In this document: piece after piece, positions 4,783 to 64,000 of the stretch
How positions within the stretch are numbered: the stretch's first letter is position 1
Layout of the letters: every line of letters starts with the position of its first letter
DNA from: Iamia majanohamensis
GTDB taxonomy: Bacteria; Actinomycetota; Acidimicrobiia; Acidimicrobiales; Iamiaceae
Reading direction: 5' to 3'
Length of the DNA stretch: 64,000 nt
Assembly (NCBI RefSeq): GCF_028532485.1
Contig: NZ_CP116942.1
Span: forward strand, 2,046,001 to 2,110,000
Translations under genes and position numbers: made by a program
The notes under the pieces: model-generated
Told to the model about the DNA's origin: nothing
Databases searched by the model: none
The model's input: the letters and a program-made list of their open reading frames with translations, nothing else

Positions 4783-5607
4783 GTGAGCCACCTCCGGGTG
4801 TGCTGGGTGGTCGGGGCGCCGGTCGAGCACTCGCTGTCGCCGGTGATCCACAACGCCGCCTTCGCCGCCCTCGACCTCGACTGGTCCTACTTCGCGGTCA
4901 GCGTGCCGCCCGGCCAGGCCGGGCGGGCCGTGGCCGCCATGCGGAGCCTCCGCCTCGGCGGGGTCTCGGTCACCATGCCCCACAAGCAGGATGCCGCCGC
5001 CGCGGTCGACGTCCTGACCCCGGCGGCCGAGCGCCTCGGTGCGGTCAACTGCCTCGCCTGGCGGGGCACCCGGATCGAGGGTGACAGCACCGACGGCGCC
5101 GGCTTCCTCGACTCCCTCCGGGTCGACCACGCCTGGGACCCCGAGGGGACCCGGGCCGTCGTCGTCGGGGCCGGGGGCGCGGCCCGGGCCGTCGTCGCCG
5201 CCCTCGCCGACGCCGGCGCCCGGGAGGTGGCGGTGGTGAACCGCAGCGCCGACCGGGCCCGGGCCGCGGCCGCCCTGGCCGGCGACCGGGGCCGGGTGGT
5301 GGGCACCGAGGCCGTCGACGACGCCGACCTGGTGGTGAACGCCACCCCGGTGGGCATGGGTGGCGACGGTGCGCTGCCCCTCGACGCCGACCGGCTGGGG
5401 GCGGGCCAGGTCGTGGCCGACCTCGTGTACGAGCCGCTCGAGACCCCGCTGCTGGTCGCGGCCCGGGCCCGCGGCGCGGTCCCGGTCACCGGCATCGGCA
5501 TGCTCGTGCACCAGGCCGCCCACGCCTTCCGGGCGTGGACCGGCGAGGACCCGCCGGTCGAGGTCATGTCGGCCGCAGTCGTCGCCGCCCTCAGCACGCA
5601 CGGCTAG
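4783..5607 (+). CDS. aroE: Shikimate dehydrogenase
   Basis: Reduces 3-dehydroshikimate to shikimate with NADPH, step four of chorismate synthesis. The 274-residue protein has the substrate loop GAPVEHSLSPVIHNAAF near the N-terminus and the catalytic Lys in VTMPHKQDA. NADP-binding Gly-rich VVVGAGGAARAVV is at about 127-139, followed by VVNRS, and the C-terminal GIGMLVHQAAHAF is typical of the family. It closes the alaS-ruvX-mltG-aroE run. Chorismate from this pathway supplies menF and trpE, both present further along. A GC-rich hairpin at 5704-5722 may end the transcript. Confidence 0.95.
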   Translation: MSHLRVCWVVGAPVEHSLSPVIHNAAFAALDLDWSYFAVSVPPGQAGRAVAAMRSLRLGGVSVTMPHKQDAAAAVDVLTPAAERLGAVNCLAWRGTRIEGDSTDGAGFLDSLRVDHAWDPEGTRAVVVGAGGAARAVVAALADAGAREVAVVNRSADRARAAAALAGDRGRVVGTEAVDDADLVVNATPVGMGGDGALPLDADRLGAGQVVADLVYEPLETPLLVAARARGAVPVTGIGMLVHQAAHAFRAWTGEDPPVEVMSAAVVAALSTHG

Positions 5608-12836: not shown

Positions 12837-14057
12837 TCAGGGGCGGACGAGGACGCCCAGGATGGCCTGGAGCTTGGCCCGGGTCTCCACCAGCTCGGTG
12901 GCCGGGTCGCTGTCGCCGACGATCCCGTTGCCGGCGTAGGCCCGGGCCTCCGGGCCCCGCACGGTGGCGCAGCGGATGGCCACCGCCCAGGTGCCGTTGC
13001 CGTGGCGGTCGAGCCACCCCACCGCTCCCGCGTAGGGGCCCCGGTCGAAGCCCTCCAGCTCGGCGATGGCGGCCAGGGCCGCCGCCCGGGGGCGTCCGCA
13101 CACCGCCGGGGTGGGGTGCAGGGCGGCGACCAGCTCGAGGATGCCGGCGGCGGGCGACGACAGCTGGCCCCGGACGGTGGTGGCCAGGTGGGTCACGTTC
13201 GGCAGGGTGACGACCGACGGCTCGGGCTCGAAGTCGAGGAACGAGCAGAACGGCAGCAGCCCGTCGTACACGGCGTCGATGGTGACCTGGTGCTCCTGGC
13301 GGTAGGACGGCGACGCCCGCAGGCCGGCCACCGCGTCGGCGTCGGCCACCGGGTCGCCCCGGCGGGGCGCGGTGCCCGCCATGGGCTGGGCCTGCACCTG
13401 GTCGCCGGCCCGGGCGACCAGCAGCTCGGGGCTGGCGCCCACGAAGCCGTCGACGGAGAAGGCGTAGCAACCGGGGAACCCCCGGGCCAGGCGTCGCACC
13501 ACGGCGGCCACGTCGAGGTCGGCGTCGGCCTCCACCCGCACCTCCCGGGCCAGCACCACCTTGTCCAGCTCCCCGGCCCGGATGCGCGCCGTGGCCCGGC
13601 CCACGGCGTCGGTCCACGCCGAGGGGGCCCGCACGCTCTCCACCGCGAAGCGGCCCGGCCCGGGTCCGGGGGGCGGGTCGGTCGCCCACGGCGTCAGGTC
13701 GACGGCGGCGGGGTCGGCCGGGGGCGCGTCGGTCGTCCCCACGGTGGTCACCCAGCCGGACCCGTCGGGCCCCCGGCGCACGACGAGGGCCGGCACCACC
13801 ACCTCGGCCGGCGCATCGGGGTGGAAGGGCAGGGCCCCGAGGGCGACGGGTCCGGTCCCTGGTCGGTCGACGGGGTCGTCGACCTCGGCTGCGGCCAGCA
13901 GCTCGGCTGCGTCCGAGGGCGCCAGGCGGGCCACCTCCCCCCGGCCGGCCAGGGCCTCGACGTCGGCCCGCCCGAAGAGCAGGCCGTCGCCGCCGGCCAC
14001 CCGGACCGGGTCGGGGAGGTCGGGTCGCGCCGCGGTGCGCGCGACGAGTCCGCCCAT
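12837..14057 (-). CDS. menF: Isochorismate synthase
   Basis: Converts chorismate to isochorismate, the entry to menaquinone. The 406-residue chorismate-binding protein has ELDKVVLAREVRV, carrying the general-base Lys, and ALHPTPAVCGRPRAAA. GFDRGPYAGAVGWLDRHGNG and GNGIVGDSDPATELVETRAK are also present, the last with Mg-binding Glu residues. The N-terminal third is divergent. The gene assignment over salicylate- or anthranilate-type relatives rests on context: its ATG overlaps the menG stop in TGATG (14055-14059), and menD and menH are next door. Confidence 0.9.
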   Translation of the reverse strand: MGGLVARTAARPDLPDPVRVAGGDGLLFGRADVEALAGRGEVARLAPSDAAELLAAAEVDDPVDRPGTGPVALGALPFHPDAPAEVVVPALVVRRGPDGSGWVTTVGTTDAPPADPAAVDLTPWATDPPPGPGPGRFAVESVRAPSAWTDAVGRATARIRAGELDKVVLAREVRVEADADLDVAAVVRRLARGFPGCYAFSVDGFVGASPELLVARAGDQVQAQPMAGTAPRRGDPVADADAVAGLRASPSYRQEHQVTIDAVYDGLLPFCSFLDFEPEPSVVTLPNVTHLATTVRGQLSSPAAGILELVAALHPTPAVCGRPRAAALAAIAELEGFDRGPYAGAVGWLDRHGNGTWAVAIRCATVRGPEARAYAGNGIVGDSDPATELVETRAKLQAILGVLVRP

Positions 14058-33583: not shown

Positions 33584-34600
33584 TCAGTCGCCGTCGACGG
33601 CGACCACCACCTTGCCGGTGTTGCCGCCGGTGAAGAGCAGGTTGAGGGCTTCGGGGGCGTGCTCCAGGCCCTCGACCACGTGCTCGGCGTGGCGGACCTG
33701 GCCGTCGGCGACCCAGCCGAACATCTCGGCCTGGGCCTCGGGGAAGCGGTCGAGGTAGTCGAGGACGAGGAAGCCCTCCATGCGGGCCCGCTCGGTGATG
33801 AGCCGGAAGGTGTTCTTCAGGCCGTGGCCGCCGGAGCGGTCGTTGTAGGCGGAGATGGCCCCGCAGCACACGACCCGGGCCCGCATGGCGAGGTGCTGGA
33901 GGCAGGCGTCGAGGATGGCGCCGCCGACGTTGTCGAAGTAGAGGTCGATGCCGTCGGGGCACAGGGCCGAGAGGCGCTCGTCGACGTCCTCGCCCTTGTA
34001 GTCGATGGCCCCGTCGAAGCCCAGGTCCTCGACCAGGAACCGGCACTTGGCCGGCCCGCCGGCGATGCCCACGACGCGCCGGGCGCCGCGCAGCCGCGCG
34101 ACCTGGCCCACCACCGACCCGGTGGCCCCGGCCGCGGCGGAGACGACGACGGTGTCGCCGGGCTGCATCTCGCCCACGTCGAGGAGCCCGAAGTAGGCGG
34201 TCATCCCGGTCACCCCGAACACGCTCATGGTGGCCTTCAGGTCGACCCCCTCGGGGATCACCTGGGCGGTGTTGCCGGCCTCGTCCACGACGGCGTGGTC
34301 CTGCCAGCCGAGCATGCCGAAGACCGTGTCGCCCACGGCGTAGAGGTCGCTGGCCGAGGCCACCACCTCGCCGATGCCGCCGCTGCGGACCACGGCGCCC
34401 AGCTCGATGGGGGGCATGTAGCCGGGGGCGTCGTCCATCCAGGTGCGGATGGTGGGGTCGATCGAGAGGTACCGCACGCGCACCACGGCCTCGCCGGGCT
34501 CGGGGCGGGGGACGGGCACGGTCTCCAGCCGGGTGGTGGAGGCGTCCACCATCCCGGTGGGGCGGGCGGCGAGGACGATGCGGCGGCTCTCTGCGGTCAT
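33584..34600 (-). CDS. NADP-dependent oxidoreductase, MDR superfamily
   Basis: 338-residue zinc-free medium-chain reductase of the leukotriene-B4-dehydrogenase/CurA type. It has RYLSIDPTIRTWMDD, the GMTAYFGLLDVGEMQPGDTV hinge and the nucleotide-binding VSAAAGATGSVVGQVARLRG. FDNVGGAILDACL is followed by CCGAISAYN. Such enzymes reduce the C=C of enones with NADPH, and the substrate is unknown. CAGGAT ends 6 bp before the ATG. It is convergent with the MDH-like gene. Confidence 0.88.
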   Translation of the reverse strand: MTAESRRIVLAARPTGMVDASTTRLETVPVPRPEPGEAVVRVRYLSIDPTIRTWMDDAPGYMPPIELGAVVRSGGIGEVVASASDLYAVGDTVFGMLGWQDHAVVDEAGNTAQVIPEGVDLKATMSVFGVTGMTAYFGLLDVGEMQPGDTVVVSAAAGATGSVVGQVARLRGARRVVGIAGGPAKCRFLVEDLGFDGAIDYKGEDVDERLSALCPDGIDLYFDNVGGAILDACLQHLAMRARVVCCGAISAYNDRSGGHGLKNTFRLITERARMEGFLVLDYLDRFPEAQAEMFGWVADGQVRHAEHVVEGLEHAPEALNLLFTGGNTGKVVVAVDGD

Positions 34601-60849: not shown

Positions 60850-62094
60850 GTGACCAGTTACCTTGTCGACGACCACTCGAGCTTCGACGGGTCGCTGCCC
60901 GTCCCGGAGGCCTCTCCCCAGGTGAGCCAGTCCACCGCCGTGCCCCCCATCCACGTCGCCGTCGTCGAGAGCGACGCTGCGGCCCGGGCCCGGCTGGCCA
61001 TGCAGCTGGGCTCCGGGGTCTTCGACTACGAGCACTTCGGCGACTTCGCCGCCCGCCTGGGCGGGACCCCGACCATCGTGGTCCTGGGCCCGTCGTGCGC
61101 CGACCCCCAACACCTCTCCAGCCTGGCCGCCGTCCTCCAGCCCCGGCCCGAGGTCGGTGCCGTCCTGGTGGCCGAGGAGCTCTCCACCGAGCTGTTCCAG
61201 CAGGCCATCCGCTCCGGGGTCAAGGACGTGCTGGCCGCACCGGTCGACACGGCCCAGCTCCAGGAGGCCTGCCGCCGGGTCGCCGAGTCGGTCGGCGCCA
61301 TGGGCCGCCCGTCCGACGGCGCCCTCACCGACGACGAGGAGGGTGACCGGGGCCGGGTCATCACCGTGTTCTCGACCAAGGGCGGCGCCGGCAAGTCGGT
61401 GGTGGCCACCAACCTGGCCGTGGCCCTGGCCCAGCGCACCGACGAGGTGGTGGCCCTGGTCGACTGCGACCTGCAGTTCGGCGACGTGGCCGTCATGCTC
61501 AAGCTGGCCCCCCAGCACACCATCGTCGACGCGGTGGGGGCCATCGACCGCCTCGACCCCGGGTTCCTCCAGAACCTGCTGGTGACCCACCCGCCCTCCG
61601 GGCTGCGGGTGCTGCCCGCCCCCCTGGAGCCGGCCTACGCCGACCAGATCTCGGCCGAGCACGTGCGCACGATCATCGCCACCCTCCGCCGGGTGGCCAA
61701 GTACGTCATCGTCGACACCCCGTCGTACTTCGACGACAAGGTGCTCACCCTGATCGAGGACTGCGACGACGTCCTGCTGGTGGCGGGGATGGACATCCCC
61801 AACATCAAGAACGTCAAGATCGGCCTCCAGACCATGCGGATGCTGGACACCCCGAACTCCAAGATCCACCTGGTGCTCAACCGGGCCAACACCAAGGTCC
61901 GCCTCGACGTGAGCGAGGTCGAGCGCACCCTGCAGATCAAGGCCGAGACCCAGCTGCCGAGCGACATCGTCGTGCCCCAGTCGATCAACAAGAGCGCCCC
62001 GGTCGTCCTCGACGCCCCCAAGAGCTCGATCGCCAAGGCCTTCGAGACCCTCGCCGACCGCTACATCCCGGCCAAGACGAAGAAGAAGCGCTGA
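60850..62094 (+). CDS. cpaE: CpaE/TadZ-type pilus assembly ATPase
   Basis: 414 residues. N-terminal receiver-like domain (HVAVVESDAAARARLAMQL), lacking a convincing phospho-Asp, then the ParA/MinD-type ATPase. The deviant Walker A is VFSTKGGAGKSVVATNLA with Lys177 and Lys182. DCDLQFGDVAVML and VIVDTPSYFDD are the later nucleotide motifs. CpaE/TadZ positions the Tad machine at a pole or site. It ends in a basic tail KTKKKR. Coupled to cpaB (4 bp). A 721-bp non-coding gap follows before cpaF, which is unusual for this operon. Confidence 0.88.
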   Translation: MTSYLVDDHSSFDGSLPVPEASPQVSQSTAVPPIHVAVVESDAAARARLAMQLGSGVFDYEHFGDFAARLGGTPTIVVLGPSCADPQHLSSLAAVLQPRPEVGAVLVAEELSTELFQQAIRSGVKDVLAAPVDTAQLQEACRRVAESVGAMGRPSDGALTDDEEGDRGRVITVFSTKGGAGKSVVATNLAVALAQRTDEVVALVDCDLQFGDVAVMLKLAPQHTIVDAVGAIDRLDPGFLQNLLVTHPPSGLRVLPAPLEPAYADQISAEHVRTIIATLRRVAKYVIVDTPSYFDDKVLTLIEDCDDVLLVAGMDIPNIKNVKIGLQTMRMLDTPNSKIHLVLNRANTKVRLDVSEVERTLQIKAETQLPSDIVVPQSINKSAPVVLDAPKSSIAKAFETLADRYIPAKTKKKR

Positions 62095-62135: not shown

Positions 62136-62232
62136 GGCACGGGAGGGCCCTCCGTTCGGTGCTCGCCCTGGCCTGCGCTCGCTGGCGCTCGCTCCGGCTG
62201 CTCCGCTCCGCTGCGGAGGCCCCTCCCGTGCC
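62136..62232 (+). repeat. Long hairpin element, copy A
   Basis: Perfect 12-bp arms GGCACGGGAGGG (62136-62147) and CCCTCCCGTGCC (62221-62232) enclose inner CCTCCG/CGGAGG pairs and a 65-bp core (62152-62216) starting CCGTTCGGTGCTCG and ending TCCGCTGCGG. The core is repeated at 62606-62670 in reverse orientation with 64 of 65 bases equal. It lies 41 bp after cpaE. Confidence 0.8.
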
Positions 62233-62589
62233 TTCCTCCGCTCGCACCCTCCGCGGGCCGGGCGTCGCTGGGAGGGGAGAGGGGCCCTCGGCCACGTGCG
62301 CCCCGTGTGACCGCACCGCGTCTGTGGGTCGTCCGACGGCGGTGTGGCAGGCATCGTGTCCTTGTCGCGCCGTCGCGCTCGTCCCTCCGGGTCCGGCTCG
62401 GGTCGCCCGGGGGGTGAGACCAGCCGACGACCCGCACCCACCTCACGCGACGGAGGGGCTCGAGCCGGGGGGCGCACACACAGGGTCGGCAGGGGCGCGC
62501 GCCGTGAGGGGCACCGTCCCGGCGTGACCGAGGGCCGAGCGCGCTGAGCCCACCCCGGCGGGTGGCCGGCGGGGATGAGAGCGGAGGGA

Positions 62590-62686
62590 GGACGGGTGGC
62601 GTCCCCCGCAGCGGAGCGGAGCAGCCGGAGCGAGCGCCAGCGAGCGCAGGCCAGAGCGAGCACCGAACGGGGGGCGCCACCCGTCC
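62590..62686 (-). repeat. Long hairpin element, copy B (inverted)
   Basis: The same 65-bp core on the minus strand (62606-62670), one difference from copy A. Its own arms GGACGGGTGGCG (62590-62601) and CGCCACCCGTCC (62675-62686) are a perfect 12-bp pair but differ from copy A's arms at several positions, so the pairing is kept while the sequence is not. Inner TCCCCCG pairs with CGGGGGG-type bases. Both copies are exactly 97 bp. Confidence 0.8.
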
Positions 62687-62815: not shown

Positions 62816-64000
62816 ATGTCCCTCTACAAGCGCCTCCACGAAGCCAACCCGCAGGCCGCCGGCTTCAACGCGGCTACGGCCGTCAAGCGCCGTGACCCGG
62901 TCATCGACGAGCTGCGGCAGAAGATCCACCACCACCTCATCGACGAGCTGGGCCCGATCCTCTACGACAAGCGCCTGAGCGAGGACGACCTCCGTCGCCG
63001 GGTGCACGAGCAGCTCCACGCCGCCCTGGCCCAGGAGCGGGCGCCCCTGTCGGCGGCCGACAAGGCGCAGCTCATCCAGGACGTCTCCGACGACATCCTC
63101 GGCTACGGCCCCATCGACCGGCTGCTCCGCACCGACGACATCACCGAGGTCATGGTCAACGGGCCCGACATGGTCTTCGTGGAGAAGGCGGGCAAGGTCG
63201 AGAAGACCAACGCCACCTTCGTCGACGACCAGCACCTGCGGCGCATCATCGACAAGATCGTGGCCCAGGTCGGCCGGCGCATCGACGAGGCCTCGCCCCT
63301 GTGCGACGCCCGCCTGCCCGACGGCTCTCGCGTCAACGCGGTGATCCACCCCCTCGCCATCGGCGGTCCCTTCCTCACCATCCGGAAGTTCTCCAAGGAC
63401 CCGTTCCAGATCGACGACCTGATCCGCTTCGGGACGCTGAACGCGGCGTCGGCCCGGTTCCTCCAGGCCATGGTCCTGGGCAAGCTCAACGTCATCGTCT
63501 CCGGCGGCACCGGCACCGGCAAGACGACGATGCTCAACGTCCTGTCGTCGTTCATCCCCGGCGACGAGCGCATCGTGACCGTCGAGGACGCCAAGGAGCT
63601 CCAGCTCCACCAGGAGCACGTGCTCTCGCTGGAGGCCCGCCCGCCCAACATCGAGGGCAAGGGCGCCATCGCCATCCGCGACCTGGTGAAGAACACCCTC
63701 CGCATGCGCCCCGACCGCATCGTCGTCGGCGAGTGCCGTGGCGGCGAGGCCCTGGACATGCTCCAGGCCATGAACACGGGCCACGACGGCTCGCTCACCA
63801 CGATCCACGCCAACACGGCCCGGGACTGCATGGCCCGCCTCGAGACCCTGGTGCTGATGGCCGGCTACGACCTGCCCATCCCGGCCATCCGCCACCAGGT
63901 CTCCTCCGCCGTCGACTGCGTCGTGCAGATCGGCCGCCTCCGGGACGGCTCCCGCCGGGTGGTCTCCATCACCGAGGTCCAGGGCATGGAGGGCGACACC
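62816..64000 (+). CDS. cpaF: CpaF/TadA secretion ATPase (3' truncated by window end)
   Basis: 395 codons visible and open to the edge, so the stop lies outside. Hexameric ATPase that drives Tad pilus assembly. N-terminal helical part, then GPIDRLLRTDDITEVMVNGPD, IDEASPLCDARLPDGSRVNAV, Walker A SGGTGTGKTT (Lys236), Asp box DERIVTVEDAKELQL and Walker B with RPDRIVVGECRGGEALDML (Glu306). The His box is GHDGSLTTIHANT. ATG 62816 has GGAGG 4 bp upstream. Downstream tadB/tadC and pilin genes are expected beyond the window. Confidence 0.93.
   Translation, partial: MSLYKRLHEANPQAAGFNAATAVKRRDPVIDELRQKIHHHLIDELGPILYDKRLSEDDLRRRVHEQLHAALAQERAPLSAADKAQLIQDVSDDILGYGPIDRLLRTDDITEVMVNGPDMVFVEKAGKVEKTNATFVDDQHLRRIIDKIVAQVGRRIDEASPLCDARLPDGSRVNAVIHPLAIGGPFLTIRKFSKDPFQIDDLIRFGTLNAASARFLQAMVLGKLNVIVSGGTGTGKTTMLNVLSSFIPGDERIVTVEDAKELQLHQEHVLSLEARPPNIEGKGAIAIRDLVKNTLRMRPDRIVVGECRGGEALDMLQAMNTGHDGSLTTIHANTARDCMARLETLVLMAGYDLPIPAIRHQVSSAVDCVVQIGRLRDGSRRVVSITEVQGMEGDT

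Follow-up and report, generated by a model that had tools for sequence, protein, structure and literature searches.

A genus-restricted family of intergenic hairpins with a conserved core and covarying stems, two copies of which face each other between cpaE and cpaF

Described repeats and the cpaE-cpaF locus

The best-described REP-like repeats are those of Proteobacteria. A REP is defined as an extragenic, palindromic sequence that forms a short (14-40 nt) stem-loop, shares a common consensus and is present in multiple copies per genome (PMC12306157), and the GTAG- and CGTC-tagged kinds carry the unpaired tag at one end (PMC3733652). REPs are located mostly downstream of coding regions, their subfamilies show complementary changes in the stem, inverted pairs of them can fold separately or together, heterodimers with different stems included, and those of the CGTC type have no dedicated transposase (PMC3733652, PMC12306157). 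They measure 20-40 bp, and have a short loop and a stem of mostly 6-9 bp (up to 13).

Two other described systems bear comparison with the repeats presented below. Intrinsic (Rho-independent) terminators are GC-rich hairpins, located in sense orientation soon after a stop codon and followed by a U-tract. Integron attC sites follow open reading frames, and their structure is kept while the sequence of the arms varies; their core sites carry the motifs RYYYAAC/GTTRRRY.

The DNA analyzed here is a 64-kb stretch (the window) of a 4.58 Mb genome present as a single contig (G000). It contains genes of a Flp/Tad pilus operon in which cpaB (RcpC domain) is located upstream of cpaE; the nearest named relatives according to CpaE are Acidimicrobiales MAGs and Aquihabitans. 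A preliminary description of this region reported two inverted 97-bp elements within the pilus operon. Both are present, at positions 62136-62232 (+ strand) and 62590-62686 (- strand), and their 65-nt cores are alike at exactly 64 of the 65 positions, as reported. Each copy had also been assigned a perfect 12-bp arm pair; the coordinates of these arms are right and their pairing is exact, but the true stem is longer and consists in each copy of 19 bp with one mismatch (18/19). The features of the locus are the following.

62136-62154, + strand: 5′ stem arm of copy 1 (19 nt), pairing with 62214-62232 at 18 of 19 positions
62155-62213, + strand: conserved core of copy 1 (59 nt, free of A), 58/59 identical to the core of copy 2 and 89-91% identical to those of the other G000 copies
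62214-62232, + strand: 3′ stem arm of copy 1 (19 nt)
62233-62252, + strand: 3′ tail of copy 1, TTCCTCCGCTCGCACCCTCC, 75% identical to the tail of copy 2; its first base is a T in every copy
62668-62686, - strand: 5′ stem arm of copy 2 (reversed copy, read on the - strand), pairing with 62590-62608 at 18 of 19 positions
62609-62667, - strand: conserved core of copy 2
62590-62608, - strand: 3′ stem arm of copy 2 (read on the - strand)
62233-62589, no strand: spacer of 357 nt separating the two copies
60850-62094, + strand: cpaE-like gene of the Flp/Tad pilus operon, encoding a P-loop NTPase; the stop codon is located 41 nt 5′ of copy 1
62816-64000, + strand: beginning of a cpaF-like gene (T2SSE ATPase; Pfam T2SSE, E 1e-62), which exits the window; its MSLYKRLHEANPQ start is conserved in relatives

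At a GC content of 76%, 12-bp arms are near chance level, so that a single hairpin alone proves little: perfect 12-bp arms with loops of at most 90 nt occur nine times in the real window and one to eight times in each dinucleotide-shuffled window. Perfect 12-bp arms were accordingly rejected as proof of an element. The window contains three more arm pairs, 12-13 bp long and enclosing loops of 65-85 nt (5178-5268, 13756-13855 and 33778-33888); shuffled windows yield similar numbers and these pairs are perhaps due to chance. The 64/65 match between the cores and the presence of genome copies at E values of 6e-18 to 2e-14 are far beyond chance, however, and it is this repetition of the core elsewhere in the genome that establishes the element as real, even though a lone 12-bp arm pair is near chance.

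The unit shared by the two window copies comprises the 97 bp and the tail of about 20 nt on the inner side, where identity is 75% over 20 nt and falls to 20-45% beyond. The outer flanks are 30% identical, which is the random level. This indicates that the element itself was copied and not the surrounding segment, and copy 2 would then represent the element alone, copied in inverse orientation. A segmental inverted duplication is ruled out, the flanks of the two copies being unrelated. The 357-nt spacer was also considered as a repeat or insertion sequence, and this was ruled out as well: the genome contains no second copy of it, only short, GC-rich chance matches.

Copies, position and covariation of the family

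The preliminary description had proposed to search the genome for the core and to compare the arms of all copies, and had taken an absence of further copies to point to a single chance duplication. Further copies do exist. A search of G000 with the 97-mer gave five complete copies, two of them in the window, and one truncated copy. The three further complete copies are located after ftsX, after a thiolase gene and after a DivIC/FtsB-like gene; the truncated one, at G000 position 351874 (L061, around 4883), preserves the 5′ arm and one half of the core, beyond which the DNA is unrelated. An exact-pattern scan of the genome_contigs collection, run to look for a wider distribution, gave no matches. 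A covariance model was built from six copies and run over 61 relatives. It detected one copy in G001, between nuoD and nuoE, and two in G002, after the thiolase gene and after purM. The remaining 58 relatives had none, the matches being confined to the genus; weak matches outside the genus (E ≥ 0.08) were left out of the counts. No covariance model of Rfam 15 matched the window copies or the other copies tested, and no description of the repeats was found in the literature, of which few subscription journals were covered.

All eight complete copies are intergenic. Seven start 26-41 nt past a stop codon, in sense orientation, and the genes upstream of them are cpaE, ftsX, thiolase (twice), DivIC-like, nuoD and purM. 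For these seven copies, which have recognisable genes, the distance between stop codon and core is 48-63 nt on the sense strand. Only copy 2 of the window breaks the rule, being reversed and located upstream of cpaF. The thiolase site is orthologous in G000 and G002, and the arms present there are largely different and still paired. The other copies of G000, G001 and G002 occupy non-orthologous sites. This predominance of different places indicates frequent gain or loss of copies.

The stem has a length of 19 bp in every complete copy, with 15-19 of the 19 pairs formed. It starts with GG and ends with CC followed by a T (8/8), so that the ends of all copies read GG...CC-T(T/C/G)C, and the T is followed by a pyrimidine-rich tail. 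The arm-to-arm length ranges from 95 to 118 nt and the region between the arms is about 57-61 nt (57-59 nt in G000 and G001, longer in G002). In G000 and G001 the core opens with TTCGGTGCTCGCYCTGGC and closes with CTGCTSCGCTCCGCT and one further nucleotide; the G002 copies retain the base of the core and have, in place of this tip, a longer one containing GCTCGCTGCGCTCGC.

Double-sided changes that preserve pairing were found at 12 of the 19 stem pairs in an alignment of six copies made without a structural model, and at 15 of the 19 in a model-fitted alignment of the eight copies; since only eight complete copies exist and several of these are related, such counts do not represent independent events. 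None of 500 shuffles reached the observed level of covariation, and no slid register came near it. Relatedness is evident from the G000 copy on the ftsB side and the nuoD copy of G001, whose stems agree at 17 of 19 positions and have a T.T mismatch in common, one that is present also in the thiolase copy of G002. The G001 nuoD copy and the G000 ftsX copy have cores identical at 57 of 57 positions and stems that differ at six pairs. The stem keeps its pairing and is free in sequence; the core keeps its sequence. The earlier proposal of a conserved core within covarying stems therefore holds over eight complete copies from three species, and the family is real, multi-copy, covarying and restricted to these three species of one Acidimicrobiales genus.

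Folding does not explain the conservation of the core: with RNA as well as DNA parameters, neither strand shows more internal structure than shuffles do (z about -0.8 to 0.1). We also considered a core paired through G.A, in which symmetric GA/GA steps would lie between GC pairs on the A-containing strand; neither strand gave an energy excess over shuffles, and this reading was rejected. Absence of A from the core was rejected as a special property, A-free or T-free runs of at least 57 nt being common in the window (25).

As judged from its sequences, the family looks like a new, untagged relative of REP repeats. Like REPs, its copies are extragenic (8/8) and palindromic, have a shared consensus with multiple copies in G000, are located mostly downstream of coding regions and show complementary stem changes; the inverted pair of the window recalls the REP pairs that can fold separately or together, and the lack of a dedicated transposase recalls the CGTC REPs. 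Unlike REPs, the elements are long (97 bp in the window, 95-118 nt over the family), have a 19-bp stem and a long conserved apical region, with the stem variable and the tip conserved, carry no GTAG/CGTC tag and are present in few copies. A link with a REP-associated tyrosine transposase (RAYT), as suggested in the preliminary description, finds no support in G000: the Y1 transposase domain (Y1_Tnp, PF01797) gave no match in this single contig or in G001, and two matches each in G002 and G003. The design is thus reversed with respect to known REPs, with a frozen tip, a free stem, no tag, no known transposase and a place after stop codons, and it occurs in Acidimicrobiales. With intrinsic terminators the family shares the GC-rich sense hairpin soon after the stop codon; it differs in having no U-tract, in its conserved apical region of about 60 nt, and in being present in nuoD-nuoE and cpaE-cpaF, gene pairs that are normally co-expressed. 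The resemblance to attC sites lies in the kept structure, the variable arms and the location after open reading frames. In contrast to attC, it is the tip and not the base of the stem that is conserved, the hosts are housekeeping genes and not cassettes, and the RYYYAAC/GTTRRRY motifs are absent from the element sequence as read.

Proposed role and origin of the hairpins

Relatives carry other hairpins at some of the same sites. After cpaE, G002 has a plain 16-bp hairpin without core and G003 a plain hairpin (12 bp by script); after the thiolase gene, G001 has a plain 12-bp hairpin without core. Elsewhere in Acidimicrobiales, cpaE-cpaF gaps frequently contain a strong hairpin whose sequence is very different (8 bp in Aquihabitans, 9-11 bp in others), and at L134 a hairpin of a second repeat family (family B, see below) lies immediately past the cpaE stop codon. 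No obvious hairpin is present in the cpaE-cpaF gap of G001 (about 90 nt), indicating that a hairpin is not essential there, and in more distant relatives the gaps are short. Since different hairpins occupy the site after cpaE in relatives, it is the hairpin that recurs and not its sequence. We read this as the recurrent use of interchangeable hairpins at the cpaE gene boundary, for which there would be selection.

We consider it probable that this small, dispersed family of intergenic hairpins acts as RNA in the 3′-UTR or between cistrons, where it would end or protect the mRNA of the preceding gene and uncouple the next one. The sense orientation, the fixed place past stop codons and the paired changes point to a role at the RNA level. 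Neither window copy is followed by a U-tract or terminator-like site (the tails are TTCCTCCG and TCCCTCCG), which makes classical intrinsic termination unlikely, and the placements in nuoD-nuoE and cpaE-cpaF argue against full termination; we therefore favour an intercistronic or 3′-UTR hairpin that would stabilise the mRNA upstream or end it, and loosen its coupling to the next gene. In the proposed mechanism the strong hairpin would end or protect the upstream mRNA, here that of cpaE, and expression of the next gene, here cpaF, would be lowered or uncoupled, by analogy with what has been proposed for REP hairpins in operons. A binding or recognition site would be provided by the conserved tip. 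At the cpaE-cpaF locus the core of copy 2 is predicted to pair with that of copy 1 over about 60 bp, and the resulting long double-stranded RNA between cpaE and cpaF would be a likely RNase III substrate.

Complementary arms may also be kept by mutation instead of selection. Template switching is known to cause mutations at imperfect inverted repeats (PMC7202029, PMC3820800), and correction of quasi-palindromes in this way would mirror changes from one arm to the other, including the two mirrored single-pair indels by which, on inspection, the stems of copies 1 and 2 can be aligned in both arms at once. The element would then be passive and its cores alike through recent spread or gene conversion, for which the near-identical, facing cores of the window are suitably arranged. 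We regard this as unlikely: it leaves unexplained why the stem is always 19 bp long, why the copies follow stop codons and why cores at different loci are identical at 57 of 57 positions between species that share only about 90% identity in their proteins, and the T.T mismatch persists uncorrected in three copies. Quite improbable, in our view, is a mobile element with a core that enters the loop of a palindrome or terminator already present, the differing arms representing differing target sites. The mostly non-orthologous sites and the core-less hairpins at orthologous positions (after cpaE in G002 and G003, after the thiolase gene in G001) are what such an element would produce. However, the hairpins lacking a core are 12 and 16 bp long, whereas all eight stems of the family are exactly 19 bp between the same GG and CC and precede the invariant T; the stems are related across loci and species, as in the ftsB and nuoD copies; those of the window align with mirrored indels; Y1_Tnp is absent from G000 and G001; and target duplications were not observed. 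The proposal of the preliminary description that an element inserts into palindromes or generates them thus finds no support: the stems are of one length, related between loci and followed by the same T.

The two window copies might, alternatively, form a single unit in which the inverted repeats pair as a giant stem that switches cpaF on or off. That they can fold together, as had been supposed, is thermodynamically possible: in the minimum free energy fold of the whole 682-nt gap the copies pair with each other (-501 kcal/mol, z -8.2, versus -372 kcal/mol when pairing is limited to 130 nt). Such a fold follows from the inverted orientation by itself, and its energy is therefore not evidence of function; moreover, no other locus has the paired layout, every further copy being single, and during transcription the local 19-bp hairpins would form first. 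As a model for the family's role, a switch of this kind seems very improbable. If the role as a 3′-UTR or intercistronic hairpin is correct, the family would provide a test case for the marking of mRNA ends and unequal operon expression in bacteria of very high GC content, whose terminators have no U-tracts.

A second repeat family and additional observations

Short matches to the core tip led to a second family, family B, of about 155 nt, with three hairpins, conserved loops and covarying stems. It starts 0-20 nt from stop codons. G000 has at least 34 copies of it and G002 at least 35 (examples within L243-L302 are G000:C1:657489-657646 and G002:C1:2022416-2022569); none were found in G001 or G003. 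The sites mostly differ between G000 and G002, with three orthologous pairs found. Double changes were present at 5 of 13 tested pairs, and 0-1 of 500 shuffles reached the observed value for four of five measures (9 of 500 for pair types). Family B has no Rfam match. It resembles the 97-bp family in its place directly after stop codons, its conserved loops and covarying stems and the same GCTCGCTGGCGCTCGCTCCG tip; it differs in its other stems, in the shorter first stem (6 bp) and in its many more copies. Conceivably, although we think it unlikely, the conserved-tip hairpins of both families constitute one system of 3′-UTR marks, in which a trans-acting protein or nuclease would read the tip, the free stem would present it, and dozens of genes in the genus would be under common 3′-end control.

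In a few family B copies the stop codon of the gene lies inside the first stem. In one orthologous pair (L263 and L272; first hairpin, at about base 500 in gene orientation) the stop codon is TAG in one stem and TGA in the other, and the opposite arm is changed to match, the stems being TCGTAG/CTACGA and TCGTG/CACGA; from the C-terminal peptide we take these genes to be aldehyde-dehydrogenase-like. In G019 (L033, L044, L050, L054 and L056) many intergenic copies of TTTCGACTGCGCTCGCTGGCGCTCGCTCCGCTCAAC are present, often facing inverted relatives; their tip motif is that of the 97-bp family and their arms are different. Finally, L017:2757-2885 (- strand) matches the Rfam ALIL pseudoknot (E 7e-13), a frameshifting signal known mainly from IS3-type insertion sequences.
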